Source: Priapulus caudatus | Lineage: Eukaryota > Priapulida > Priapulimorpha > Priapulimorphida > Priapulidae | Direction of reading: 5' to 3' | NCBI RefSeq assembly: GCF_000485595.1 | Contig: NW_014579185.1 | Span: forward strand, 1 to 23,848 | Length of the DNA: 23,848 nucleotides | In this document: piece by piece, positions 2,162 through 22,347 of the stretch | How positions within the stretch are numbered: the stretch's first letter is position 1 | How the letters are laid out: each line of letters begins with the position of its first letter | Translations under genes and position numbers: made by a program | The notes under the pieces: model-generated | Told to the model about the DNA's origin: nothing | Database searches by the model: none | The model's input: only the letters and a program-made list of their open reading frames with translations

Positions 2162-5100
2162 GTATATTGAGCTTTTAAATTTTAACTCTTTATCTTTTTC
2201 AAAAGTAGTCATTATATTTTTGCTGCTCTAGCTGGCCACTGCTTCATGGTTTTAGCATTTGCTAACATGAGCTATATATAGCTGTACCGATTGTCTTACA
2301 TATGCTTCCACTGTTGTCAGGTTTAATTGTACCATAAAGCGCATCTTCCTTGCAGATTCTCCTAACAGAGGTAGTAAAAGAATACACATCAATGCAAGAA
2401 GCAATTCTTGGAGTAGTTAACAACCCAGATGTAAGCTATTACATTTTGACCACCAATAAAAACAAAGTTATCTTACATTAATTGCTGTTATTAGTGAGTA
2501 ATTGCTTTACATTAACTCCACCATAACGGGTGATTCTCCATTAGGAGTGTTCCCAACTTTAATGTCATTAATGGTTAGGGTTAGGATTATCTATCATTAA
2601 TCATTAATCATTAAAGGCTCACAATGCGCATCCAAACACTAATTTCTCCAGTACTAGACTAGCAAATACTTCGTGTCATGCATAATCACACTACCAATTA
2701 TGACAAAATAAACTCTAGTTGCTCCCATTTCACTGCGCGTTTGCTTAAAACCCACAAGAAAGATACTGTTTGCAACTCGCTGTTCAAACATGGCATCACA
2801 GACAGGCATTATGCATATCTAATCTCATGTGGTACAAAAAATACGCAACTTCCATTTTTAACAACTTTTTTACAATCGTGGAACATGTTGTTACAGATTC
2901 AATAATTTGCAAATATTTTTTTTAATAGAATTAGATCTTATAAATTGAAAACAATAAAATAAATCTAATTGTGCACTTGTGTTATTACTTATATCCTTAG
3001 TTGTGTCTGGTGGCTCACCAGCAAAAATTATAAATGCAAACGTTTAGTAACTGATGCTAATGTGCTGCTTAATCTTCAGCGTTTCCCCTGCATTGACACG
3101 GGCGAGGCGGGCCGCCACGCGGAAATTTGTCCAAAAAGCCTCCTCGCTGACGAAATTAGTGTTACTACAATCAAGACGCACATACAGTGTTATAAATATC
3201 CGTTCAGAATAGCTCAGAATGCACCGAATTGCATTTTTTTCAAAAATTGGACCACCTAGCTGGGCGAGTGCCTTTGGCGTTCGCTTTGCTGGGACACTGA
3301 ACAAGAAATCAATAAAAATACAATTTACCGCCTCGCAGACCTTTTTGGCCAGGGGAAACACTGATCCATATTACATATTAACGAAGAGTCCATTTTTAGC
3401 TGTTTTAATGATTATCATCACAAGTGTGGATTTGGTTACAATATTAGTTGTGAAGCTACTGTCAGGAAATGGCAATCAATTTCACCATCGCCTTAAGGTA
3501 GGGGCACACGAGCGATTTTTATCGCCCGATCGCCGCGAATTTTAAAATCGCTAGAAAAATTCGCCTGTGTGCCCGTTCACGTCGACGCCGATTTTAATCG
3601 CCCGTACGAATCGCCCGTATCCAAAATGTTAGATATTTTCGGGCGATTATTTACGCCCGCGATTATTTACTGGCAAATTCGCTCGTGTGCCCGTGTTCGG
3701 CGTATTTTGTCGCCCGATCGATTTTTCTAAACCAATCGGACGTGTTGTTGATATCATGTGATGCATCATGTGATCATGTGATTCCGTCGAGTGGCGTACG
3801 CCTACGCTCTCAAATTCGCTACGTGTGCCCCTTCGTGATCGGGCGATTAAATTCGCTACGTGTGCCCCTTCGTGATCGGGCGATTAAATTCGCTAGCGAT
3901 TTTAATCGCTAGCACCAAACTTACGCATTACCAAACTTCAACTGTGTTTCATGGAATTATTAATTTAGGGATTTTGATTTTCAGTGGGTCTGAGTGTGTT
4001 ACTGAAAATGGGGTGTGTTCACCAGTTGCCACCTGTTCAATATGATGGTAAGTATAAAAATAAGGTATAAAAGAACCTGCACTTTTAAGCACTAGACACT
4101 AAATAGTTGGCCAAGCTTAAAGGGAGAGTTTACTCTAGGTTCTAAAATTATTTTCAGCCAATTTAGGTTATAATTACACTACATAAAAAGTTTCATGGTT
4201 CAATCACCATTAGAAATATTATTAAAAAATGTTTAAAAACTAACGACTACCATTTGATTACAACGACGGTGGCGCCACTCAAAGCGCACGATCTGATAAG
4301 TTGCGCAAAACCACTTTCCAGCCAAGGGCTACAGACCGAGGGTGTTTCTTATTTATTCATTTAAAAGCAAAAGGATTGTAATATCTTGGTAATATCTTAT
4401 AAACGACATATAGTTTCAGTTATAATATGGATACATTGCCACAAACATGAATATTCGGTTCCCGACCTCTTAAAATAGCATTTAGGTCGAAATATACAGC
4501 ACATTTGTCATCATAGTCACCTCGTCTTAACGTGCAAACTAAATTGTCAAATAAGCAACTTATTTTGGGGCGCACGGCACGGCGCCGGGTGTCATGGCCG
4601 CCGCCTGCAAAATTCCGTTGCGCTTGATCGGAAATTCAATCAAACAATAAATTAGCGGATCTGGTAACAAACTACGTGTGGCGTATAGACCGATTTGTTT
4701 TACAGTAAGTACACGTTGTATTACAGTAAAACTCCTAGAGGCAACTGGTCCCTCTTAAACAATGGCTCCTAGCACCCCTCAGTCACCTCCATCCCCTCCC
4801 CATCCACAATAGGTGACACACGAACCTTGAGAAACTTTTAGTGGACGGCAGTAGGTCTCTATACTAGCACCCTACGTGTAAGGTTATCTGTGTACCTTTT
4901 ATACTATATTTACTAGATACTATCTACATAACATAACAATGTGCAGGACCCCACATGTTGTTCGATTCAACCAACTTTCTTTTAAATAACCAGAGAAATT
5001 AAATCGAGGACACAAATCTCCACTTATTTGCCTATCAGCTGGTAACCCGACACAACGTATTTTGTGCGCGCCATACTACAGTTAGATGCACAGGCAGCTT

Positions 5101-8100
5101 GGCAACCCACTGCAAATCTTTAAGGACATATTCTACTAATTCAATACCTTATTACTTAGTAACAGATTCTTTCACATAATTAATACAACCTAGCGCAGCC
5201 ACATCTATTTGATACTGTACGCTGCATACAGTTTCAACACACCTGCCACTAAAGAACGCTAAGATCTTTAAAGAAGCCCATGTATTCGCCCAAAAAAATC
5301 GGACCACACCATTTAGCACGCTCTTTACATAAGAACCTGTTTGTAGGCCGCTAAGGTGTTTTAAAGTACCCGCGTTCTTAATTTTCCCATTGGCACGATG
5401 AAGACTGGCATGGGTCCCACAGAACACAGAACGTAAAACCAATGCAAAGCGGCATCATGGCACTGCGATAAGCTCCACAAACAAATGAAAGTATCCACAT
5501 TAGAAAACATGTAGGCTACAACCCCCACAAAAAAGGAACAGCCAAACGAGTGAGACAGTAAGAAGTACAGTCATACCACGCCATAATCATCCGACTAGCG
5601 TAGGCGTTCGCGAGAAATAAAACTGGTCTAATCCCTGCCGTTCGCGACACATTTGCATAAATCTTTACTCTAATATAGACGTTTATCGGTTAGACGCGCG
5701 AAGAGGAAATCACCACCTCTTAGCATTGAAGAATCATTAGCTCAATAAGATCTCGATAAACCCGAACCCAGACGAGTCGTGCCCAACGCAACAGACTGTG
5801 TAGTGATCAACACTAACCATTTGCCTACTATAATTTGGACCAAACCTACATAATTAGACAATACACCTTATTAAAATAATCAAAACCCCACCTAGCGCCC
5901 TTATTCACTGACGTCGCAATACCAAAAAAATACGAGAAACCCACACACATCCGCTTGACACTCGGAACTAGAATTACAATGGACAAGTCCCAAAACACTT
6001 TTTCGAACACAAAATCGACCGTGGCTCAGAAAGTAAGACGCGACTGCGCAGACGTGCTCCAAAAGAGCACGTCATTTAATATGGGCACCTAGCAGTAACA
6101 ACTACACCCAATTTCAAAACATGTGGGTCAAACGGTCCTTGAGTATCGTTGACCGACGGACAGACGGACGGCCTACGACCGGACGACAACCCATGGCAAT
6201 AGCCAGACTTGACGATGTCAAGGTGAGCTAAAATCTAGTTCTACTGGGTTTTTACTGTATGGGAATGTTACATTACTTTTTTTGCGTCGCATTCTCCATT
6301 TGTTATAGCAACCGCTTAATGCTGCCTACCTATCAGTGCAAGTGTGACATTATAGTTTACCATATTATTGCTTCTCAAATATTAAGTTGCCCTTAAAATC
6401 TTATAATTATCATTTCGGAAGCTAATACTGTTCTTAGTGGCTGGAGGGACATGTTACGTCTTTTGTTAATGTGGATAAAAATGGTCGTGGTTTGCCACCA
6501 ACAACCTACAAGGAGAGGGGTGCACAACACTTGCTGTGGCTGCTCTGGTGGACACAGGACGGCCTACAAAGCAGAATGCCGGTGGGCCGACCAAGGAGGC
6601 CGGTTGTGTTCCCCTGGCCACCCGTATGTGTTCAAGGTAATTGAGCTTTAATTTTTAACGCTACTTTTTCAAAGTAGCATTAATATTTTGCTGCCTAGCT
6701 GGCCACGCTTCATGGTTTTAGCATTTGCTAACAGAGCTATATATCCTGTAACCGATTGCTTCATAGCTTCCCACTTTTGTCAGGTTTACATTGTCACCAT
6801 AACGCCGCAATCTTCCTTGCAGATTCTCCTACAGAGGTAGTAAAAGAATACACCAGTCCATGCGACGAAGCAATTCCTTGGAGTAAGTTACAACCCAGAT
6901 GTACAGCGATTACATTTGACGCACCATAAAACCCAAAGTATCTTTACATCATTGCTGTTATAGTGAGTGAATTGCCTTACATTAACCTCCACCATAACGG
7001 TGATTCTCCATTCAGGAGTGTTCCCAACGTAATGTCATTAATGGTTAGGTGTTAAGGAGTTATCTATCATTAAGCATTTAATCATTCAAGCCACAATGCG
7101 CAATCAAAGCACTAATTTCTCCAGTACTAGACTAGCAAATACTCGTGTCATGCATAATCCACACTAACAATTAGGACAAAAAAACTCTAGTTTGCTCCCC
7201 ATTCACTCGCGCGTTGGCTTTAAAACCCACAAAGAAACGAGGTGCGCAAACTGCTTCTGGCGCAAACGCCGACTGTTTTGCCAAACAAATACCCGGACAG
7301 TGGTGACGTGACGTCACATGGTTTTATCCTTGGGCTGCGCCCCGTACCGCTTGTACCGGCCGCACCGCGGCACGGTTGCTTGCGGATTGGGGAAACTGTC
7401 AACAACATTGGAGGTATTTTCAATAATACTTTTATAAGACAACACGCAGTGAAATGGGAGGAACTAGTTTATTTTGCCATAAGGTAGTGTGATTATGCAT
7501 GACACAAAGTATTTGCTAGTCTAGTACTGGAGAAATTAGCGTTTGGATGCGCATTGTGAGCCTTTAATCATTAATGATATCAAAGTTGGGAACACTCCTA
7601 ATGGAGCGTATATATAGCCACCATAACTGTAATCATAACCATCGAGTAGCACGCTGCGTAGCTAGGCTTATGCAGAAAAGCATTTATTGTATTACATTTC
7701 CGCATATCATAGTAATTATTCATATGCTACATTAGTCATTATTTACAAAACTGATACATGTAAATTAATTAATTAATTTTTACAGGTTGATAGGATGGCG
7801 CAGGAAATGAATCGAAAGGTAAATATGCTGTATGCATCTTCTATAGACTATGCCATTCTAGTTTCCATGGGTGTACCTTTGTGTGGCACTAGTCAACATA
7901 AGAATAGTTTATTTCTGGAGAATAGGTTTAGAGTTCAACAACAAAACTGTCTTCAACTGATAAACATAACATTTTTACTCTTAACATTAATATTTCTAAG
8001 ACAAGCATCTGCAGAAACATGAAGAAATATGAATCTGCTATAAAATAAGTCTGCACACACTTGAATAATGCATCTTAAATGCATGCCTATAACAACATGC

Positions 8101-9827
8101 CTGTTATTCATTTTTATTTACCAGGCTGTACAAGGGCAAGTAGTGTCACAGCAATTGTGTTCTTTGTTTTCCAACAAACTGCCAGCTGCTTTTGAGGAGA
8201 AACCAGTGTAAGTCCCTTTGAAAACATTGAAGCCTGTCATTTACACACATATGACATAACCTACATTTAATTTAGTTTACTTTGTTAAATGCCACAAGAC
8301 ACATCTATTATAACAATGCAATTGTCACATCTTTAGTTGAAATTTCTTTCTGTTCATATAGGGTATCACGCCTCATCTGTTTGTTGGTAGCAGTGGAAAG
8401 TCGGCGATAGTCGAGCCATTCTTGGAGGGAAAGTTTGTTAAATATATAGGGAATGAGATGCTTCAGGTAGAGGACGATGATGACGAAAACAGTATGCTAC
8501 ATGCTGTTTTAGCGCTAGCCCATTACGCGCATGATTTGACAAAGGGCAAATTAATATTGACAGATCTCCAAGGTACAGTACAGAAGTCGATCATCGTTAT
8601 GCAACCCTAAAACCTCAAGATTATTAGATGCCAATATACGCACTGCCAAATCTGTATTACGTTTTTAAAAATCACTAAAATCAATTGCTACTCAATTTAA
8701 CCATATTTTCACCTCAACTTTAATTACAACACTGCAACACATGCTTTTTATGTATTAAAAACATCACAAAATGCTGACATTGTATTGTACATTAATTAGC
8801 AGTAATGGTAAGTTTAGAAGAAATAATCATGCCAGACAGTATTTATAACATCCAATGCTTAGTAATATAATTTAATGAATGTAATCCCTTTTGGTATAGG
8901 AGTTGGCAAATTGCTGACGGACATTGAAATTGCAACGGATGAGATGGTTGGTGAAGATGGAAGCCTGTAAGTACAAACCGAGTACAATCACAAGCTGGAT
9001 ATTGATTATGTATCTTATTCCCTGCAAGAAAAAATTCGAAATGATTCTGGAAGACAATGACCTCTAATCTCCCTCAAACAGGGAATACATGAGTGCCATA
9101 CATCCCCTTGAAAAACCATATTCATGCCGTTTGTTTCTATTATAAGAAAGCAACCATGATTCGATATGTCTATACTATTTTTTATCAGTAAATATTATAC
9201 ATGCCAAAAACACATGGAATTTCATCTATGTGCGACTTATTCCCCCAACAGGCTCTTTGCTGCAGGAAACTGCTCAAAGGTTGCAATTGCAAACTTCGAA
9301 ATGACGCACAAGTGCAATGAAATTTGTACTGAAATTGGTTTAAAAGGTAAAGTCACAAAATAAAACTAGCTTGTGTAATTCTAATGTGCTGCCAAGTATA
9401 CATACTTGGAGAGCAATTAACTGTGCATATATAGTATATAAGTATTAGTGTGGATAAAACCTATAGCTAATAACTTTTGAAGAAACTTTATGAGATTATG
9501 TGAGAATATATGTGACAAGTCAGCAAAATTTATTAAACAAGAATTGAATTCATATAAAGGGTTTTTCATTTGAATTTTAAAAAAAACATTTTTTTCCTCA
9601 TACTCGTTACAGTGGTTAATATTAGCTAATTAAGAAACGGATTTTATTTCTTTCAAAACGTTGGTCATGACATCACATAATAGGTTTCTTATTTGGCAAC
9701 CTAGATCATTATGTAATAACGTTGATGCTAGTATGCCATTATTCATGTATTCATACAAAGTACTTCCTCGGCAGGGATGATGTGCAAGCCCCAGAGTGAA
9801 ACAGATGTTGGAAATGTTGACAGTCAG
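1974..9827 (+). CDS. alpha-kinase family protein, split gene (overall model)
   Basis: This is an atypical Ser/Thr protein kinase of the alpha-kinase superfamily (eEF2K, TRPM6/7, Dictyostelium MHCK). Exons used: 1974-2161, 2356-2430, 7786-7818, 8125-8205 (or -8207), 8362-8572 (or from 8391), 8900-8966, 9252-9346 and 9775-9827, probably continuing into 10261-10560. Family landmarks appear in order: a GGHRTAYKAE N-lobe strand, lysine in YVFK (ATP contact), VEPFLEGKFVKY (hinge), histidine in LALAHYAHDLTKG, LTDLQG (catalytic Asp), LTDIEI (metal Asp), a glycine-containing AAGNCSKVAIANF loop and HKCNEIC. The two histidines and two cysteines match the family zinc site, so an active kinase is plausible. 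Nearly all junctions keep phase. Exon 1974 needs one carried base from an exon not found. The 4400-7240 stretch between the second and third exons repeats the first two and should be ignored in a gene model. Substrate unknown. Confidence 0.88.
2356..2430 (+). CDS. alpha-kinase exon: N-lobe helix
   Basis: This 75-base exon (25 codons, phase 0 at both ends) has a ccttgcag acceptor and a gtaagc donor. It begins ILLTEVVKEYTSMQEAI, which fits the helix after the ATP-contact lysine. A degraded duplicate is at 6823-6900. Confidence 0.82.
2536..2750. repeat. left arm of long-TIR MITE (copy 1)
   Basis: The arm starts CTCCATTAGGAGTGTTCCCA and is matched in inverted orientation by 7450-7606. Beyond about 2765 the sequence no longer follows the other copy of the element, so this arm is followed either by a different family member or by a misjoin. 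Confidence 0.75.
2766..3076. other. intron or misjoined sequence, no gene seen
   Basis: AT-rich DNA. The 75-codon and 96-codon frames here lack splice context and family resemblance. Whether this stretch belongs in the kinase intron is doubtful, because the noisy copy skips it. Confidence 0.4.
3077..3363. mobile_element. hAT-like MITE
   Basis: Ends are CAGCGTTTCCCCTG and, inverted, CAGTGTTTCCCCTGG, the CAGNGTTTCCC pattern typical of many hAT elements. Subterminal GC-rich blocks (gcgaggcggg and cctcgcag) also pair. Length is 287 bp. I do not see a clear 8-bp target duplication, and the open frames on both strands are shadows of the element. Confidence 0.6.
3493..3912. mobile_element. GGGGCACACG-ended MITE next to a TTAA
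   Basis: It begins TTAAGGTAGGGGCACACGAG and carries inverted partners of the form cgtgtgcccctt near its other end. Runs of CGATTTTTATCGCCCGATCG-like self-complementary sequence fill it. A TTAA at the left edge hints at a piggyBac-type target, but the right edge is rearranged by tandem duplication. Confidence 0.5.
3814..3887. repeat. 37-bp tandem duplication at a MITE end
   Basis: Two identical 37-base units beginning ATTCGCTACGTGTGCCCCTT, followed by the start of a third at 3888. This duplicates the element's terminal sequence. Confidence 0.85.
3985..4047 (+). other. weak exon candidate
   Basis: A 63-base stretch sits between a good acceptor (gattttgattttcag) and a good donor (gtaagt). One frame with two carried-in bases is open (GLSVLLKMGCVHQLPPVQYD). 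No family is recognised and no neighbouring exon fits with confidence. Confidence 0.25.
4112..4345 (-). repeat. possible divergent R1-related copy
   Basis: TTAAAGGGAGAGTTTACTCT near 4118 and ctacagaccgaggg near 4327 resemble the two ends of R1 in reverse order, with a ggcgccact and aagttgcgcaaa segment in between. Divergence is high, so the family link is tentative. Confidence 0.4.
4402..4759 (+). repeat. dispersed repeat R1, copy b (noisy)
   Basis: Same family as copies a and c, with extra single bases throughout. It marks the left end of the noisy duplicate; the join to the upstream contig probably happened inside this repeat. Confidence 0.7.
5229..6257. mobile_element. noisy copy of the Tc1/mariner-like MITE
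   Basis: Same element as 946-1797, between TA dinucleotides, 1029 bp against 852 bp. It belongs to the noisy duplicate and does not show a second insertion event. Confidence 0.75.
6438..6636 (+). pseudogene. frameshifted duplicate of the N-lobe kinase exon
   Basis: This corresponds to 1974-2161 but is 199 instead of 188 bases, with several indels that break the reading frame, for example in the stretch equivalent to ADPGGHRTAYK. The flanking splice sites are preserved (ttag acceptor, gtaatt donor). It is best read as a sequencing-error copy, not a true pseudo-exon. Confidence 0.75.
6823..6900 (+). pseudogene. frameshifted duplicate of the second kinase exon
   Basis: This corresponds to 2356-2430; 78 bases against 75, with internal single-base changes that break the frame. 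The ccttgcag acceptor is intact and the donor is altered to gtacag. Confidence 0.75.
7006..7606. mobile_element. long-TIR MITE, about 600 bp
   Basis: The left arm (7006 to about 7215, noisy) and right arm (about 7450-7606, clean) are inverted repeats of 150 bp or more ending in CTCCATTAGGAGTGTTCCCA. The unique centre is GC-rich and holds a perfect TGACGTCA palindrome near 7310. No transposase frame and no clear target-site duplication are seen; the superfamily is not assigned. Confidence 0.7.
7786..7818 (+). CDS. alpha-kinase microexon
   Basis: A 33-base exon, VDRMAQEMNRK, sits after a strong polypyrimidine tract (aattttta cag) and before a gtaaat donor. It is phase 0 at both ends. It continues the N-lobe helix that in this family carries the exchange of aliphatic and charged residues before the beta-strand leading to the hinge. 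It would be missed by gene finders with a minimum exon length. Confidence 0.75.
8125..8205 (+). CDS. alpha-kinase exon: N-lobe to hinge linker
   Basis: After ttattta ccag the exon reads AVQGQVVSQQLCSLFSNKLP and then AAFEEKP. Two donors overlap at cca-gt-gtaagt. Ending at 8205 (weak gtgtaa donor) keeps phase 0 with the acceptor at 8361. Ending at 8207 (strong gtaagt donor) leaves two bases, which fit only an acceptor at 8390. The first option restores a strand expected in the family; the second uses better splice sites. Confidence 0.72.
8362..8572 (+). CDS. alpha-kinase exon: hinge and catalytic core
   Basis: This is the most diagnostic exon. GITPHLFVGSSGKSAIVEP is followed by FLEGKFVKYIGN, which matches the family hinge signature. 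Then comes an acidic insert (QVEDDDDENS), a helix with LALAHYAHDLTKG, whose histidine corresponds to the first zinc ligand, and KLILTDLQG with the catalytic aspartate and following Gln. The donor is gtacag, leaving one base (phase 1). An alternative start at 8391 is possible. Confidence 0.88.
8900..8966 (+). CDS. alpha-kinase exon: metal-binding Asp
   Basis: The split glycine codon of the LQG-VG junction is completed here, then KLLTDIEIATDEMVGEDGSL. The aspartate in LTDIEI corresponds to the magnesium-binding Asp of the family TDPEI motif. The acceptor is tatag, the donor gtaagt, and it ends with two bases of a Leu codon that the next exon completes. Confidence 0.85.
9252..9346 (+). CDS. alpha-kinase exon: glycine loop and zinc site
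   Basis: LFAAGNCSKVAIANFEMT leads into HKCNEICTEIGLK. The H-x-C-x3-C pattern is the hallmark C-terminal zinc motif of alpha-kinases, and the preceding AAGN..KVAIANF corresponds to the family's glycine-rich loop (GNLG..AI..F). The acceptor is cccccaacag and the donor gtaaag. It enters with one base of a Leu codon and leaves one base. Confidence 0.88.
9360..9770 (+). other. kinase intron, nothing else seen
   Basis: AT-rich intron sequence without repeats or convincing frames. Confidence 0.6.
9775..9827 (+). CDS. post-kinase linker exon
   Basis: A 53-base exon after tcggcag, ending in cag|gtattt. With the carried G it reads GMMCKPQSETDVGNVDSQ and ends in phase 0. Polar and unstructured, it follows the zinc motif by a few residues, so it lies just outside the kinase fold. 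Without splicing the frame reads on for about 17 codons to a stop near 9882, giving a possible alternative end. Confidence 0.65.
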
Positions 9828-9999
9828 GTATTTCACTATTACTGTAGGCATTTATGCTTTTTTAATGAAAATATGATGTGACAGGCTATATATTTTAAAC
9901 TGTCTAGTGTCCAAGATGTATATAGTGACGAAATAACTACAGTTTATAACAACGAGATAAACATGCAAAATAGAAAATTATTGTTTTTAATGCATATAG

Positions 10000-10045
10000 G
10001 ATCATTAGAAGATGAATTGACATGGTTGCTATTATTCTTGTTCTG
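10000..10045 (+). other. cryptic exon candidate in the last kinase intron
   Basis: The 46-base segment has a gcatatag acceptor and a gtgagt donor. Spliced to the exon ending at 9827 it adds two codons and a stop, ending the protein directly after the kinase domain. Skipping it joins the SMC5-like exon in frame. It could be a poison or alternative terminal exon. Confidence 0.3.
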
Positions 10046-10260
10046 GTGAGTTATCCAAAATACTTTCGACCCTTTTGATATGCAGCAGTTACAAGCTCAC
10101 CAAAAACAGCATGAATTTGTAATCACAATATACTATTTGTAGCAATATGTTGCATATTTAGTGCAAATGTTCAAGTCGGTTCAAGTGAATTTTCAAGCTG
10201 TAAACTAACAGCAGCAACGGACGTGAAGTATTTACATTATTATCAAACTGTTTGTTTCAG

Positions 10261-10560
10261 ATGAACAATATGAAGATTGCAATATTTCAAACCATTCAGC
10301 AAGGATTACTTTGGATTCGGAAACACAAAAATGAACTAAAAGGAACAGTTTCAGTGCCACGACCACGCCACTCACAAATATTGGCGCTCTGTGCTCATAA
10401 TATAAATTCTGAAGTTGATATAGATCGTGAACTAGCTGACATCACAGCTTTTTCATTTAACAACAGGTGTGATATGGAAAGATTTTTGAAGGAGATGCAT
10501 GATGATGCCATGTTTGCATTAAATGTAATATTGAAACCAGATGAGCCTGTCAAAAATTGA
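10261..10560 (+). CDS. terminal exon resembling the SMC5 hinge N-terminal half
   Basis: After tttgtttcag the frame is open for 99 codons and then stops. Landmarks are GLLWIRKHKNELKGTV, then ADITAFSFNN, CDMERFLKEMHDD and ALNVILKP. From memory of the family, these match in order the start of the SMC5 hinge: a WLR-N-K-FK segment, a D-x-x-AF-F strand, a DME-FLKE helix and a VN-V-x-P strand. SMC5 is a core ATPase of the SMC5/6 DNA-repair complex. The rest of the hinge, the coiled coils and the ATPase heads are absent, and the stop falls just after the strand. It is phase 0 at its start, so it joins the preceding kinase exon in frame. It could be a chimera, a captured SMC5 exon, or a separate SMC5 fragment using its own first Met. 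Confidence 0.6.
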   Translation: MNNMKIAIFQTIQQGLLWIRKHKNELKGTVSVPRPRHSQILALCAHNINSEVDIDRELADITAFSFNNRCDMERFLKEMHDDAMFALNVILKPDEPVKN

Positions 10561-11899: not shown

Positions 11900-11947
11900 C
11901 TGTAATAGACACAAAGTTAAGATTTCTTTCAATATCGGATTTTTATT

Positions 11948-12287
11948 AAAGGGATACGTGACTCTAGGATTTTACTGCATACAACTGTACTTGCTGTATA
12001 ACCAGATATTGTGTATAACCAGGTATTGTGTTACCAGATACCTAATTTCATTGTTATAATTAATTATACATCAACGCTACAAAATTTGAACGGCGCCATT
12101 GACACCCGCGACCGTGCTGCCACCCTGAAAAAGTTGCGCATTTCCCAATATATTTTGCACTTTACAGACCAAGGGCTAATCACAATTAAATAAAGTTGCA
12201 ATTATATTTATACCTAAATGCTATTTAACCAAACGATGTTCATTTTAGGGCAAATTTATCCATAATATAACTGAAATTATATGTCAT
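11948..12287 (-). repeat. dispersed repeat R1, copy c (inverted)
   Basis: This is the reverse complement of copy a, and is accurate enough to align by eye across its length. It lies in the intron between two minus-strand exons. It keeps the left flank (tttcagttatattatgg on the minus strand) that is also seen at 4410-4430, which helps define the element's end. Confidence 0.75.
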
Positions 12288-13210: not shown

Positions 13211-14317
13211 CTTTGGACCCAGGGCGGATTCAGACCGTATTTGCCGTATTGGGAAATACGATCTAGATTTCAAAGTGCCCTTCGAAATTTTGCGCAGAAA
13301 ACAATTTGCTGGAATTTGGCTATATTCTTTATTTGTTTTCTTTTTCTTCTGATTCATTGACAGGACTTGAAAGAAATCAAAATTTCACATGGTAACAAAA
13401 CTAGCTTTGATATCTGAAAAAGAAGGGAAGTGCTTAATTTTGAATCATTCTGCATTAATTGCTGGTATGCAAAGCGCAGGCAAAATGAAGCAGAAATAAA
13501 ATTCCATATAGTTTTTAGCTATTGCTGCTTGACTAAATGTGTGTGTGTGTGCTCAAATGGTGCTCATTTTTGTGCCCAGTGACCCAGGGTTCTCCCTACG
13601 TTGCGCAAACGGGGCGCGCGCGCCCCGTTTGGGAAAACTCCCCCCTGTTTTGAATCGTTGCGCCCCGTTTAATTCGCGCCACATAAAGTTTGCGCAGGCT
13701 AGCGGCGTAATTCGATCTGTCAAGAATTGCCGTATCGACCAAGGCACATCGACGCGTGTATTTTTTACCGTACACGCGATGCCACTGCAGGACAGTACAC
13801 AAGTTAACCTTCGACAATGCAACAGTTAACCTGTCACTAACTGGACATACACGGACTCGGCTATCTATATTATATTTACCAGAAACCCCAGGATAACGTC
13901 TATGGGTGAGATGGTGGCGATTTTTACGCATTAATTAGTCGTAAAAGGTAACAAATAGCACGGCCCCCCCCGGACCCCCTAGCTCGCCCCTCACCCTCAC
14001 CCTTACCCCCCTCCTCAACGTTCCTCACGACACGCCCCTGTTTGACATTTTTCATCCTCGAGCGAGAACCGCCGGCCGCTGTGACCGCTTCCAAATTCTT
14101 ATAATGCCTCTGGGCCGTGATCGAGCATGTACGCAGCCTGGCGAGGCCATTGCATCTAGGCGAATGGCCTTGCCGTTTCTACCTTAACCCAGACCCCCCG
14201 GCCGATGTGCTTCGCGCGCCTAACGCGGCGCTTACTGCCTTTTTGAGGGATGTGCCCTTAAAATCTAGAAAAATACTGTCTAGCTTCAGCCCTGGATCCG
14301 CCCCTGGGACCCAAGGA
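13211..14317. mobile_element. TIR element with CAGGGGCGGATCCAG ends
   Basis: The left end CCTTTGGACCCAGGGCGGAT and right end (inverted) CCTTGGGTCCCAGGGGCGGA pair. Similarity continues inward through a TCTAGATTT..AA..GCCC block for roughly 80 bp. No transposase frame is seen between them. The interior is GC-rich and has a perfect palindrome at 13606-13631. The right half recurs in the duplicate at 14858-15370. Confidence 0.5.
13606..13631. repeat. perfect 26-bp GC palindrome
   Basis: CAAACGGGGCGCG is immediately followed by its exact reverse complement, with no spacer. A half-site relative (gcgccccgttt) follows at about 13660. Confidence 0.95.
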
Positions 14318-14595
14318 TAGAACAGCTGTCCACATTTCCACATTTGCACATGTCGCACAATATTGCGAAAATGCATTGGGGCCACCTAATCCATCCTTGA
14401 ACCAGACCTTGTGTGTGTTAGTCACATGCACGTACAGAATGGTGGGGCTATATGAGCCTAGGTCCGCCCCCGTACGCACACGACTCACGACTACGTATTT
14501 AGTACTTAGCTTCAGTAGTGTTAGCTACTTAGTACTTACTAACTTAATACTAGGCCCTATACTTAGTACTATACTTACCAAAATAAGACAGGTCC

Positions 14596-14650
<55 letters not shown>

Positions 14651-14837
14651 AGGAGTCAGATTAGTAGTCGCTGAGTAGTAGTAGGTATAGCTCTAGTTGA
14701 CTATAGCCGGTACCCATTCGACTACCGCAGGCTATTACCATTTTGACTACATTGCACTACATAGTAGAGTATGTAGTAGTACTATAGTCTCGCCTAAAAC
14801 CGACCAGGCTTCTCGACTGATTACACGTAGTGTGAGC
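13754..14837 (+). repeat. about 1-kb repeat unit, copy 1
   Basis: It starts gcgtgtattttttaccgt, contains the gaccccctag, ctcaccctcaccctta, ttgcatctagg and cttagtactatacttacc blocks and a TAG run, and ends at gtgagc next to the N at 14838. The same order of blocks recurs directly after it. Confidence 0.8.
14596..14649 (+). repeat. TAG triplet run
   Basis: About 18 uninterrupted TAG units. Confidence 0.95.
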
Positions 14838-14857
14838 NCGTTCGACCTGGAATCCGA

Positions 14858-15660
14858 GCGTGTATTTTTTACCGTCCACGTCATGCACTGCCAGACAGCT
14901 AACAGTTAACCTGACAATGCACAGTTAAACTGATTCATACAAAAAATGTACACGATTCGCGCCTATATTATATATACAAGAACCCAAATACCCGTCTCAT
15001 GGTGTGGTGGCTGATTTTACGCCATTCATTAGTCGTACGGTAAAAATTACCGCCCCGGACCCCCTAGTTTCCCCCTCACCCTCACCCTTACCCCTCCCTC
15101 CCCTGTTTGATTTATCCTGGGGAGAACCCTTGGACCTCAAATTTTATATTGCTCTGCGCCGTGACAGCATTTCAGCCCTGCGCGAAGGCCATTGCATCTA
15201 GGCCGAATGCTCTCGTTCTACCCTAACGCCAGACCCCGCCATGTGCCGCGCTGCGGGCTGCCATGCGGGCGCACCTAACGGCGCTTATATGCCCTTTTTG
15301 AGGCGATGTGCCCTTAAAATCTATAGAAAAATTACTGTCTAGGCTTTCAGCCCTTGGATTCGCGCCTGGGACCAAGCGACTAGAACAGCTGTCCACACTT
15401 CCCATTTCGCACATGTTTCGACAAGTATTGCCAGAAAATGCATATTTGGGGCCACCTATCTAATCCTTGAACAGCACTCTGTAAGCTCGTCGCTCTCGCT
15501 CATGCAAGTAACAGATATGTAGGAGTGGGGCTATAGCTAGGTCCGTACCACACGACTCACAGACTAGTATAGTACTAGCTAGTAGTGCTACTTAGTACTT
15601 ACTAACTTAATACTATAGGCCCTATACTTAGTACTATACTTACCAAAATAAGACAGGTCC

Positions 15661-15700
<40 letters not shown>

Positions 15701-15863
15701 AGTATAGCTAGTGTATAGTGTAGTAGTAGTAGGTAGTAGTAGAATATAGCTTGTACTTATTAGCCCGCGTACATTGACTACCGCAGGCTATACATTGATA
15801 CATTGACTACTAGTACTATAGTCTTAAACCGACCAGGCTCTCCGACTGTTACACGTAGTGAGC
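14858..15863 (+). repeat. about 1-kb repeat unit, copy 2
   Basis: Head-to-tail duplicate of 13754-14837, 1006 bp against 1084 bp, with frequent indels. The undetermined base at 14838 sits at the joint, so this may be a true tandem duplication or a gap-fill error. Confidence 0.75.
15661..15700 (+). repeat. TAG triplet run, second copy
   Basis: About 13 TAG units at the equivalent place in the second 1-kb unit, followed by interrupted GTAGTA sequence. Confidence 0.95.
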
Positions 15864-16585: not shown

Positions 16586-16643
16586 TGGTGGGGCGGGGGC
16601 GCGTGGGGGGGGGGGGGGGGGGGGCTGGGTGGGGGGGGGGGCG
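16586..16643 (+). repeat. poly-G tract
   Basis: Nearly continuous G with two long uninterrupted runs (about 19 and 11). It could form G-quadruplexes and is a typical sequencing and assembly trouble spot. Confidence 0.9.
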
Positions 16644-17110
16644 TTGGAATTAGAAATTGAATTTGAAATTAAAATTGATTTTGATTTTGAAATTGCGTTT
16701 TGATTTTGAAATTGCATTTTGATTCTTGAATTGCGTTTTGATTTGAATTGCGTTTTTTTGGAATTGAATTTTTATTTTTGAAATTGGTTTTTTATTTTGA
16801 AATGAGTTTGCGAATTAGAAATTGAATTTGAAATTAATATGTTGATTTTTGATTTTGAAGATGCGTTTTTGATTTTGAAATGGATTTCGGATTTTGTGAA
16901 TTGCGTTTCTTGATTTGAAATTGCGTTTTGATTTTGCGAATGCCATTTGTGATTTTGAAATTTGCGTTCTTCTTATATTTTGAATATGATTTTGATTTTG
17001 AATTGCGTTTTTGATTTTGAAATGCGTTTTGATTTTTGAAATTGCGTTTGATTTGGAATTGCTTTGATTTGCAAATTTGCCGCTTTTCGATTTTGATAAT
17101 TGCCGAACGC
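16644..17110 (+). repeat. 19-bp minisatellite, GATTTTGAAATTGCGTTTT
   Basis: About two dozen head-to-tail units of roughly 19 bases, with single-base gains, losses and exchanges. The frames across it are by-products. Confidence 0.85.
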
Positions 17111-17394
17111 TTTCGATTTGAATATGAAATTCATGCCGAAATAAAATGAAATTTCGAAATGCCCGGTGTGGCCTCCTGATGCCACCATCTACTGCCAGCT
17201 ATCGGATCGTTTTTATGCGAAATGATATCAGTCTGAGTGCATGGGCGAACTTGTATCCGGACGAAGCTCGCGATCTGCGCGCTACAGGCCCGCATGATGG
17301 AGCATTTTTATTTGTGTGTCTGATCGGCGTACATCCGCCCAAGTGAAAAGGGTTCAATATTAGTATAAGCTAGATAAATATACGCTGCGACGTT

Positions 17395-17620
17395 ATTCCC
17401 CATAGCGGGGAAATATGGGTATGGGGTATAGGCAGGATGGGTATTAGGGGAAGTATATATAAGGGTATATCATGTATATATATTATATATACCCTACTAT
17501 ACTATTTAGATATAGGGTTATATATATTATATATATATACATATATATAATATATATATGTTAGGGGATGGGTAATAGGAGGGATGGGGTATAGAAAACC
17601 AAAATAAATGGGAATCCCGG
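17395..17620. repeat. GGGGTAT/TATA-rich low-complexity region
   Basis: Alternating ggggatgggtat-like units surround a largely self-complementary TATATA core (17455-17560). Confidence 0.75.
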
Positions 17621-17830
17621 CCATCCTATACCAGCAAATCTTACTTATTAAATGACGCAAGCATCGGACGCACAGCGTTCACGACAAATGTTTGTTGTGT
17701 CGTCTTCATGTGCCACAAGCAGAAGTCGTGATCTTGAAGCAGAGCATGGTGCCAGACAGACAATTGAGCAGAAATGAGGGCTGACCGAATGCGGTAAAGT
17801 ATACTAAAAGACGGGTGTGAATATTATTGT

Positions 17831-18038
17831 AAGGCGTTGCATCCTTACGGTGGCTCTGGCTGTCCTTGCGTCGTCTGGTATAATGAAGCACAATAAGCTT
17901 GAGATCACAGGTTGTTCCTCTATATATCACGGCAGCGTGGCCTTGCTGGCTTGCCGCTTGGTTCTGGGTCGAAGCCATGTATGTCGAATCCAGTAGAATG
18001 GTTCGACTCGATATAGCTTGCTGCGTAGACACCGTTAC
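17831..18038. repeat. 0.2-kb dispersed repeat, copy 1
   Basis: It starts aaggcgttgcatccttacg and ends gtagacaccgttac; shared blocks with 20689-20918 include atcacggcagc, gtcgaatcc and gtagaatgg. Possibly an LTR or short interspersed element. The 120-codon minus-strand frame crossing it shows no known domain. Confidence 0.7.
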
Positions 18039-18504
18039 ACTTCTCCCCTCTTTTGAAGTCAGAGTCACCGGGAGCGTCTGGTAGCTGCATCAATATCCAT
18101 TGGTACATGCAATCGTACACTTTTCATTAGCATTGGTTATTGTGCTGCTTGAACGTACGTCTGCTCATAGCCGCACAACAATCGTTCGTGTATACTGGCA
18201 GGATATTTTTTGCTCCTTCGCCCTAGCCCGGTTATGTATTCACTCGCCCGACGTATTGTCTATTGCCCCCGATCCGATGCGATCGTGTTTGCGCCTTTTT
18301 CGCCTTGTACCGCCGGGGTTCGAAAACGCGTGCGTACTCTCTCTCCCCCCTAACGGAGCGTCAAAATACGAACACTAATACGCCGCTTAGAAAAATTTCA
18401 GCAACGTACGAGGATAAATTATACCCTTTCTACCCAATGCCTTGCCGGCGTGCTGGGGAGCGCCCGCCAGCTGTCCATGACAGTACTCAACCCAAACGGG
18501 GGAT
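18039..18504. other. no gene recognised
   Basis: Mixed sequence, GC-richer towards 18250-18480. The 92- and 147-codon frames have no family features, and the longer one runs into the minisatellite. Confidence 0.4.
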
Positions 18505-19325
18505 ACCCGAACTAGCCCACTGGCGAAAAGATCCCATCAAGCTCCCGGTGGGAAGTCTCCAACCAACTTCCCGCGGGGATAGTCCCAACCACTCCGCCAG
18601 CTGGGGAGTTCGACGCACTCCGCGGGGGAAGTTACCAGCATCTCCGCGGTGGAAGGTTAACAAACTCGGGGGGAAGTTAACCACAAACTCCGCCAGGGGA
18701 GTCTAGCCACAAAACTCGCGGGGGGCGTTCAACCTACATCCAGGGGGGAGTCTCAACACAGCTCACGGGGGGGCAGTCTCAAACACATCCACGGGCGGGA
18801 CGTTCCGAACTATAGCTCCACGGGCGGGCGTTCCTCAGCGCCTACTCCGACGGTGGCCAGTCTCAACACACTCCACCGGGGGGAGTCTCCATCACTCCAA
18901 CGCGGCTGGGAGTCTCAAACACCTCCACGGGGTGGCAGTCTCAACACATCCAGGAGTGCGAGCTCTACAATACACTCCACGGAGGGGCGGCAGTACCTCA
19001 ACCACTTCCACGAGTGGGGAGCTCTCTTCACACTCCACAGGGCGGAGTCTCAATTCACTCCACGGGGGGTTCCTCAGCGTACTCACGGGGGAGTTCTCAA
19101 CAACTCCACGGGGGAGCTCTCGCATACACTCCACGCGGGGGAGTCTCAACACACTCACACGGGGGGAGTTCAACACGACTCCTACGAGGTGGGAGTCTAA
19201 TAACTCCACGAGGGGAGTTCTCAACACACTCCACGGTGGGGAGTCTCAACACACTCCACGGAGGGACCAGTGGTCAATACACTCCACCCGGCGGGGAGTA
19301 TCTCCAACAGCAGCTCACGGGGGAT
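18505..19325 (+). repeat. 24-25-bp minisatellite, CACTCCACGGGGGGAGTCTC
   Basis: Roughly 33 tandem units of the form ACTCCACGGGGGGAGTCTCA plus a short CAAC tail. Each holds a small internal palindrome (CTCC..GGAG). Unit length varies by one or two bases, mostly in the G run. Long frames on both strands come from the repeat. There are no unique spacers, so it is not a CRISPR array. Confidence 0.9.
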
Positions 19326-19329
19326 GTCG

Positions 19330-19840
19330 TTTATGCGTTCATTGGTTATATATTCAAAAAATTTCTATAAGCTGTGGCCAGAGACCCCCAAAATGCCCGC
19401 ACCATGCAAGCAATCAATACGCCTGATGCAATGGTCTGGTACCTGGCCTAGAGCGAACATAAATGCGCAACAATACGGCAATCATACGAAAATACTCCGA
19501 CTCATAAATACTACCTGTAACCTGCACCTCACTGACGCCACTAGCTGAACAACTATCGTCCTATGCTCTATCTACCGTTACAGTACAGTTACGAAGGCTA
19601 ATATCGCAACCCCATGCCGACGTGACCCTGTGCCCAAAACTCAACAAACGCGTCAAAGACGACGGACGGTGCTGAGTAAGGTGAGCGATACTATGTTTCC
19701 ATGCCCCGATGGATTTTCGTGATGTCAGTGCTACGTCAGTGTGACTCAGTGAGTTAGCACACCATGACCATTACGCACAGCCACCTCCATGCTATGCTTA
19801 TTAGAGGAGTCACTACCAGTAATTATCATTCATCTCGAGC
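19330..19840. other. no gene recognised
   Basis: Unique-looking sequence without convincing exons or repeats. Confidence 0.4.
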
Positions 19841-19841
19841 A

Positions 19842-19930
19842 AACCAGAATAGCGCAGTCGCGTCAGGTTATAGGCGCCCGAAGTTGTCTTCTTTGAGGTG
19901 GTGGTTCGAATCCATCTGTTTATTATTTTT
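19842..19930 (+). tRNA. tRNA-like sequence (SINE head or damaged tRNA)
   Basis: A tagcgcagtcg A-box-like segment and a perfect B-box core, GGTTCGAATCC, are present. GGTGG and CCATC form a T-stem around TTCGAAT. AACCAGA near the start pairs with tctgtt at the end if one base is lost. The D-arm is short and the anticodon arm unclear, so no amino acid is assigned. T-rich sequence follows, suiting a Pol III terminator. Either a tRNA-derived SINE or a tRNA hurt by sequence errors. Confidence 0.4.
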
Positions 19931-20023
19931 ATTTTTCTAATTTGTTTCTATTCTTGTATCAATTTTAACTATTTTTGTGTATTAGTGTTAGCTGTTAGTA
20001 TTAGTGGTTAATTTAAATTTAAT

Positions 20024-20190
20024 TAGGGTTTAGGTCGTGTAGGGTTAGGCGTTACTGGTTAGGGTTAGGTTAGATTAGCGTTAGGGTTAAGGGTTAATGC
20101 GGCTTAGCCGCGCTTTAGGGGTTAGGGTTAGGATGTTAGAGCGTTAGGTTAGGGTTAAGCCGGTTAGGCGTTTGAAGGTTAGGGTTAAGC
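20024..20190 (+). repeat. degenerate TTAGGG-type array
   Basis: Many gttaggg units with extra or missing bases. It resembles an interstitial telomere-like tract read with low accuracy. Confidence 0.7.
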
Positions 20191-20688
20191 ACCAGCAGCT
20201 GATGGCTGTATGCATGTCACTTTACTTCGCCGAGATAGCGAAGTTTCAGTGCCGTGATTGTACCTACTGACGTTCCGCGACATTTCGATTGGCGATGGAC
20301 AAACATATATCACCGTTGTGAGTAATAAGGCGAATACTCGAGTTGACGCCGACAAACACGCTGGGGCCTTGAACCACTCCTGATTTACTTCAGTCTGACA
20401 GTGGACCTACTGTTAGTCACAGCAGCTCTCCGCACTAACGACCTATGCGCGATGCAAGCCGACAAAGAAACTATGCAGTCTCTATTGTACGCTACGGCCT
20501 GCGCCATTAATACGTTTATCCTAGCTTATCAACGAAACCGCTGGTGACCTCAGACGAAACACGATACGATATTCATACTGGCAAAAGCGTATTAGCTTAG
20601 GGATGCCTACAGCTTGTTGCTCCAGGCGCCTCCTTACGTACTCTACGAACAGATTCACAACACTAATCTGATCGATCTGCCGCCAATG
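20191..20688. other. no gene recognised
   Basis: Mixed sequence. The 80-codon minus-strand frame at 20521 has no recognised features. Confidence 0.4.
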
Positions 20689-20918
20689 TAAGGCCGTTGC
20701 ATCCTTACGTCGGTCTGCGTGTACCTGGTCGTTTTTTTCTGCGTAGCAATGAAGCCCACCCAATCAGGTTTGTCCCAGGCTGGTCGGCTTATAGTATCAC
20801 GGCAGCCGTGTGCCTTTTGACGTGGCTATGCCGTGGTAATTCTGATGCGCTCGCAAGCTGTAGGTCGAATCCGAGTAGAATGGCTTCGACTGCTACTAGT
20901 TAGCGGTAGACACCGTTA
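20689..20918. repeat. 0.2-kb dispersed repeat, copy 2 (longer, noisy)
   Basis: Same blocks in the same order as 17831-18038 but 230 instead of 208 bases, an inflation like that of the 4400-7240 duplicate. Confidence 0.7.
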
Positions 20919-21059
20919 CTTATAGCCCTACATACAAGACTATGTTGCATATGCTTCGATTCGGCCATGTATATGTTTCTATAACAGTCCGTGGGTGTTC
21001 GCTGACATGTCGGGTATGGCTAGCTGTGACTTCCGCTAATTATCTTGTACATAGTGCTA

Positions 21060-21659: not shown

Positions 21660-22044
21660 GATTTTCTCGTAAAATCGGGTCCAGAAATCAGTTATGTGGC
21701 AAAAAGTTACTCAAAAACCATTATTTCATGTCTATAAAAAATACTATTTAAAAGTGCTGGGAAATCGCACCTAGAGCCATTAAATTTTCGAAAATTTTTT
21801 GGGAGAGGACCAGACCCCTCCTTATGTGCTTCACGCTTAACGGCGCTCGCGCTGGCGGCTTTGCCGCCATTTCCTATGTTTCGATAGTATAAAGTTCCAC
21901 TGCTATTGTAATAAGAACCCCCCTCTACACACACACAACTTGTGTAGGTATGGTTGGTACGTAACAATGCGGGTGGTGTTGTAAAGTTATACACAGCATG
22001 AGGACTGGATTATACAGCAATGTAATGTCTACAATTTATGACAG

Positions 22045-22266
22045 GTTTCCATTGGAGGACGTCTTGCATATAACTACTATAGAGGTTTTCTAAACCTGGG
22101 AAAGAAAAAGAAGCAACTTCTTTCTAACCAACCGCCGACCGTACCTACCGAAATGCCGTCGAAACTGCAGGAGGTGCTAGCTAGCTTCAGCTATGTTGGC
22201 GCACTTACATCAGTTCTCGTGGAAAGGGCTGTCTTTCAGAGAAAGTACATAAAACACAACGAAAAA
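22045..22266 (+). CDS. unidentified internal exon, 74 codons
   Basis: It runs from an acaatttatgacag acceptor to a gtaggt donor, open and phase 0 at both ends. It reads VSIGGRLAYNYYRGFLNLG, a basic KKKK patch, a proline-containing stretch (SNQPPTVPTEMP), then SKLQEVLASFSYVGALTSVL and VERAVFQRKYIKHNEK. Coding quality and splice sites look good. I do not recognise the family. The AYNYYRGFL motif faintly recalls the first helix of STING's ligand-binding domain, but what follows does not match. No partner exon is certain; 23111 is a weak candidate for a following one. Confidence 0.55.
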
Positions 22267-22302
22267 GTAGGTATAACTTGTATTTTTACGCATGGCCATA
22301 TA

Positions 22303-22347
22303 ATCAAGAGCGTATTAAAAAGCTTTTCTTCTTAATACGCTCTTGAT
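22303..22347. repeat. hairpin with 16-bp perfect stem
   Basis: ATCAAGAGCGTATTAA and its exact reverse complement flank a 13-base loop. It lies just after the donor of the exon ending at 22266, so it would fold at the start of the intron. Confidence 0.9.

Follow-up and report, generated by a model that had tools for sequence, protein, structure and literature searches.

The scaffold NW_014579185.1 of the priapulid worm Priapulus caudatus carries the exons of an alpha-kinase gene on its forward strand, and one segment of this gene is present there in two copies of very different quality. The window analysed here is the first 23,848 bases of this 40,579-base scaffold, and the genome searched comprises 385,217,808 bases in 2,952 contigs; a public draft of the species is described as Priapulus_caudatus-5.0.1, GCA_000485595.2 (PMC6947571). 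All comparisons of copies and junctions in this study are based on the assembled sequence. An original prediction, made from the letters of the window, described the block 4400-7240 as a second copy, at raw-read quality, of kinase exons found in clean form upstream. Does such a repeat belong to the genome of the worm or to its assembly, and which of the two copies stands in the right place?

The locus is composed of neighbouring pieces that follow one another on the forward strand. Piece A (1-266) is the start of the scaffold, followed directly by a single N at 267. Piece X (268-2763) is an accurate kinase segment with exons at 1974-2161 and 2356-2430; it is cut on its left inside a copy of the transposon TE1 and on its right inside a copy of the repeat MITE2. 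Piece Y (2764-4435) contains intron sequence and the exon 3985-4047 (GLSVLLKMGCVHQLPPVQYD), and ends in the left part of another TE1 copy, which is clean there. Then comes X' (4436-7240), a copy of X that appears to be of raw-read quality and that probably stands in the correct place, with a frameshifted N-terminal lobe (N-lobe) exon at 6438-6636 and a further exon copy at 6823-6900, the counterparts of the two exons of X. Piece Z (7431-10560), in sequence that is clean from about 7352-7499, holds further alpha-kinase exons. Single Ns are generally marks of joins made by a scaffolder.

Results

When the exons of Y, X and Z are joined, the protein matches the alpha-kinase profile of Pfam (PF02816) over positions 3-185 of 185 with 98.7 bits (cut-off 21.3), and on the exons as joined in this analysis the gene is an alpha-kinase with a near-complete predicted catalytic domain. 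The exons of Z, with ends read by eye, are placed at 7786-7818, 8125-8205, 8362-8572, 8900-8966, 9252-9346, 9775-9827 and 10261-10560. In contrast, the deposited uncharacterized protein LOC106818266 isoform X2 [Priapulus caudatus] (hereafter P0001), which matches the joined kinase-exon protein at 100% over the third that it covers, fills only positions 121-185 of the same profile (55.3 bits). Since it starts at the methionine at 8494, this isoform lacks the N-lobe. A gene model with a duplicated and frameshifted N-lobe, which had been anticipated for this locus, was not what the deposited record offered; P0001 is the one isoform found. In the own genome of the worm, 13 alpha-kinase matches occur on nine contigs, counted exon by exon and with this window included, which makes several family members in this species probable; an alpha-kinase match was found in none of 14 control genomes.

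The pair formed by X and X' is the strongest repeat of the window as found by BLAST: 295-2761 recurs in order at 4473-7237 with 78.2% identity over 2,814 columns (1,709 bits). The expected recurrence of all landmarks in order with a gain in length of about 12% was borne out, the ratio being 2765/2467 = 1.12. The alignment that had been suggested as a check was made with a pair hidden Markov model fitted by expectation maximisation, which counts 393 inserted, 95 deleted and 95 substituted bases in X' per 2,467 reference bases, that is 0.159 insertions, 0.039 deletions and 0.038 substitutions per base. On the alignment path from which individual differences were listed there are 376 inserted, 78 deleted and 92 substituted bases; 195 of the 264 insertion runs consist of one base, the longest insertion has 5 bases and the longest deletion 2, and the inserted bases are C 166 times, A 112, G 56 and T 42. 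Small insertions thus dominate, as claimed.

Exons and transposons in X' are affected alike, with 13 insertions, 2 deletions and 8 substitutions in the copy of exon 1974-2161 and 5 insertions, 2 deletions and 2 substitutions in that of exon 2356-2430. This part of the claim that the noise hits everything equally held, but uniformity did not. Three noise regimes are favoured (Bayesian information criterion 1598, vs 1607 for two and 1687 for one), with breaks near reference positions 587 and 1591 (4783 and 6054 in the noisy copy) and insertion rates near 0.10, 0.28 and 0.05-0.06. Beyond 2762/7238 the alignment of the two copies has no continuation (score 18.0 vs a shuffle mean of 18.5). The clean sequence that corresponds to the noisy block is 268-2763, not 255-2765 as first given: 255-266 lies to the left of the N at 267, and noisy 4400-4435 matches a TE1 copy, not 230-266. 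The candidate exon of piece A at 156-236, flanked by acag and gt and with two open frames, was considered as an argument on order through its phase, and was dropped because it fits directly to neither candidate next exon.

The types of change distinguish sequencing error from natural decay. Between two clean transposon copies of the window, 268-564 and the inverted 11946-12253, there are.123 substitutions per base,.045 insertions and.008 deletions, a pattern unlike that of X'; the element arms 2600-2750 and 7432-7578 differ by.060 substitutions per base and 4 deleted bases. The same pair-comparison method distinguished a simulated raw read from a simulated decaying copy. Among the 92 substitutions between X and X', 71 are transversions, C>T is absent and G>A occurs once, so that these two classes together make up 1 of 92, compared with 8 of 32 and 2 of 9 in two clean controls.

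For raw PacBio reads, one report gives 12% insertions, 2% deletions and 1% mismatches, with errors spread randomly over the read (PMC3443046), and another, on PacBio RS data of P. falciparum, gives 14% insertions, 3.3% deletions and a mismatch rate of.0068, or about 0.7% (PMC4053816). X' shares the insertion-dominated profile of such uncorrected continuous long reads. The values that the NPBSS paper gives for raw N. crassa reads are the opposite, with deletions (8.8%) above insertions (2.9%) (PMC5964698); the two experimental papers, not NPBSS, serve as the published reference here.

Other genomic copies of TE1 and MITE2 show on which copy the errors sit. A change was scored as private when seen against at least 11 of 13 TE1 copies or at least 9 of 11 MITE2 copies, these being the best-scoring of 39 in each case. 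Against the TE1 copies, clean X has no private insertion or deletion and 11 private substitutions, whereas 4264-4743 has 42 private inserted positions (including an 11-base block at 4378-4388), 9 deleted and 19 substituted. Against the MITE2 copies, private insertions, deletions and substitutions number 15, 4 and 16 in 7092-7371, 1, 2 and 3 in 7372-7567, and 2, 0 and 1 in the MITE2 part of clean X at 2611-2763. It is the noisy copy, and not clean X, that carries the errors. At the 11 private TE1 substitutions of X, the noisy copy carries the base of X in 9 cases, the base of the family in none and a third base in 1, while 1 lies outside the alignment.

These data bear on the idea that X' is part of a pseudogene, an old duplicate in decay. 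The frameshift in its copy of exon 1974-2161 and the 5 insertions and 2 deletions in its copy of exon 2356-2430 are what such a segment might show, but insertions exceed substitutions about fourfold, there is hardly any C>T or G>A change, no deletion is longer than 2 bases and no insertion longer than 5, and the noise has its onset in one repeat copy and its end in another. Decay is largely contradicted as an explanation, and we give it a vanishingly small chance. The spectrum, the polarity of the errors, the scarcity of C>T and G>A changes and the similar sequence found elsewhere on the scaffold (see below) support instead the view that X' is raw-read sequence. A reference-free scoring of noise with base models of words of 2 and 3 letters failed to separate held-out clean from noisy pieces, so no boundary reported here is based on it.

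The boundaries of the noise were located by means of the same repeats. A TE1 copy at 4204-4758 crosses from clean sequence in Y to noisy sequence in X', and all 39 other scored TE1 copies are continuous across the corresponding point in 4264-4743 (40 were scored of 1,269 candidates, the window included), 36 of them reaching at least position 475 of 480. Measured against the 13 TE1 copies, the noise begins at 4435 (range 4420-4435), and no private insertion or deletion occurs in 4204-4377 or 4389-4434. Clean X, whose left edge is cut inside TE1, starts at 268 after the single N with TTGCC, the same letters as noisy 4436. The clean end of Y and the clean start of X thus meet at one base, like adjoining contigs. 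As a separate observation, 4378-4388 is a tandem duplication of 11 bases that at least 11 of the 13 other TE1 copies lack and that lies about 47 bases before the onset of the noise; in otherwise clean sequence, it is either a real microduplication or the trace of a contig end.

On the right, X' and Z are bridged by a MITE2 copy at 7092-7567, whose left part is noisy and whose right part is clean. Its ends, 7092-7225 and 7432-7567, are inverted, and at least 39 other genomic copies have nearly equal length; we take MITE2 to be a short inverted-repeat DNA element of the miniature inverted-repeat transposable element type. All 39 other scored copies span the interior of the element contained in 7078-7606 (40 scored of 1,156 candidates, the window included). 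Judged against 11 MITE2 copies, the noise stops inside the element, with a change-point at 7466 (7352-7499). The noisy block is real, but its limits differ from those first given: it starts at 4435 (4420-4435) rather than 4400 and ends at about 7352-7499, past 7240. In all 11 MITE2 copies examined the match to clean X ends at 2760-2763, so X breaks off within the element, and different sequence begins at 2764. A near-palindrome, GTGACGTGACGTCAC, lies at 7303-7317 in the noisy interior of MITE2.

X' is therefore supported at both junctions by copies of the repeats, and X is truncated in TE1 and in MITE2. This bears on the closest biological alternative, a real and very recent partial duplication in which X is an extra copy upstream of Y and X' is the resident copy, artefactual only in base quality. 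In its favour, no N separates X from Y, and X ends within a repeat on both sides, and repeats can mediate duplications. If C>T and G>A account for about a quarter of all natural changes, the single such change among 92 still allows X and X' a natural divergence of at most about 0.8% (an estimate). Against it, the start of X at 268, equivalent to 4436, coincides with the change from clean to noisy at 4435 (4420-4435) as if contigs abutted there, X is cut inside both TE1 and MITE2, and a single N stands at its left edge. We consider this reading improbable. That the worm carries a very young, repeat-bounded extra copy of the N-lobe exons upstream of 3985-4047, less than about 0.8% diverged, while the downstream copy is artefactual in nothing but its base quality, appears quite improbable.

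The order of the exons provides a second line of evidence. A second predicted P. caudatus protein, LOC106815822 isoform X2 (P0002), encoded on a 91,682-base contig, reads ...GLSVLRRMGCLHQLPPVQYDG and then directly LEGHVTSF.... The first part maps to 3978-4049, and the second to 1976-2164 in the clean copy and to 6441-6639, in two frames, in the noisy copy. Only the noisy position of the LEGHV exon follows exon 3985-4047, as in P0002. In addition, the last base of exon 3985-4047 begins a codon, and the first two bases of the LEGHV exon complete one.

The noisy block could also be an extra copy beside a correctly placed X, as the original prediction implied, for example the extension of a contig end whose overlap with X was not recognised. 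The pair 13754-14832 and 14858-15860 around a single N on the same scaffold resembles such a failed overlap. However, exon 3985-4047 lies between the two copies and belongs before the noisy one, TE1 runs continuously from Y into X', and clean X breaks off at 2763 inside MITE2, which leaves this explanation very unlikely. The continuity of X' with both neighbours through transposon copies, together with the exon order of P0002, makes it most likely, as far as the assembled sequence can tell, that X' occupies the real locus and that clean 268-2763 is the misplaced copy. The description of X' as a raw-read-quality second copy can thus be kept for its quality but not for its rank as the second copy.

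Other indel-rich sequence on this scaffold may be of the same kind. The segment 13754-14832 recurs in direct orientation at the adjacent 14858-15860 (about 1.05 kb; insertions.098, deletions.169, substitutions.025), with a single N at 14838 between them, and looks like two overlapping contig ends left unmerged. The tandem arrays 16647-17103 and 18746-19302 and the dispersed pair 17828-18038 and 20687-20919 are likewise rich in indels, and these features of 16590-20920 are perhaps more unpolished long-read sequence. After a run of 2,563 N, 26420-33740 is repeated in inverted orientation at 40569-34154 with 75.6% identity and 1,305 gap positions, an inverted repeat of about 7 kb that runs nearly to the end of the scaffold; near its centre the arms differ by insertions of.078, deletions of.198 and substitutions of.032. 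It is perhaps a long read that covers both strands of one molecule, and no adapter was found at its centre. We take these repeats as probable further raw sequence. Apart from them, the window has an open frame at 22042-22266 (...YNYYRGFLNLGKKKKQLL...) that runs up to a possible splice donor; in Pfam no match was found for the frame 22042-22335. A search of Rfam gave no match.

Discussion

The evidence points very strongly to a compound assembly artefact, not to biology: clean X would be misplaced, and its true site would be filled with uncorrected long-read sequence. The real order would be Y (to 4435), X, the interior of MITE2 and Z. Contigs may have broken inside the copies of TE1 and MITE2, leaving X floating with one end in each repeat; X would then have been placed one step too early, before Y, which opened a gap between Y and Z. 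This gap was probably closed by gap filling or extension with uncorrected PacBio reads, a single one or a few, that run through the real X. As an outcome, what would be a single locus is present twice, once in accurate form at a wrong position (268-2763) and once in raw form at its true one (4436 to about 7352-7499). The left change-point at 4435 meets the equivalent of the start of X and the right one at 7466 lies inside a repeat; the contig ends in this account are positions that we infer from them.

The artefact is of a known kind, with a double fault. When gaps are closed with uncorrected PacBio reads by tools of the PBJelly or LR_Gapcloser type, the fill can keep raw-read identity, as proposed for X'. 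With simulated reads of three species, the mean identity of the fill is given as 88.61-95.17% for PBJelly and about 87.7% for LR_gapcloser (PMC8848313). In S. cerevisiae with uncorrected reads, PBJelly is reported to have raised misassemblies from 29 to 102, whereas for human chromosome X the same table lists more PBJelly misassemblies with corrected reads (608) than with uncorrected ones (470) (PMC6324547), so on these figures it is not a general rule that uncorrected reads do worse. The case described here differs from such fills in that the fill also duplicates a contig present elsewhere on the scaffold, and in that its middle stretch is noisier than the averages.

Several observations count against this interpretation. 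The substitution rate of X' (.038) is above the published 0.7-1%, the insertion rate of its middle regime (about.28) is well over published averages, and the uniform error expected within a read is replaced by three regimes; the shifts could reflect several reads, or one read of varying quality. T>C and A>G together make up 20 of 92 substitutions, a share similar to the 7 of 32 and 2 of 9 seen in the controls; the argument from the spectrum thus hangs on the missing reverse class. A search for PacBio adapters in the window and at the centre of the long inverted repeat gave nothing convincing. No N marks the junction of X with Y at 2763/2764, and a misplacement of X then needs a wrong merge. 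P0002 is itself a predicted protein. Finally, the scored TE1 and MITE2 copies are the top-scoring ones, which favours full-length copies, so the TE1 test is to be read as saying that this many such copies exist.

At this locus, the clean copy is to be distrusted for its position and the noisy copy for its letters. Copies of junction repeats elsewhere in the genome located both the start of the noise and the copy that was cut, which offers a way to recognise a misplaced copy without reads. For users of the assembly, the deposited kinase isoform that was found lacks the N-lobe although exons for it exist, and counts of exon duplications or pseudogenes at this locus would mislead.

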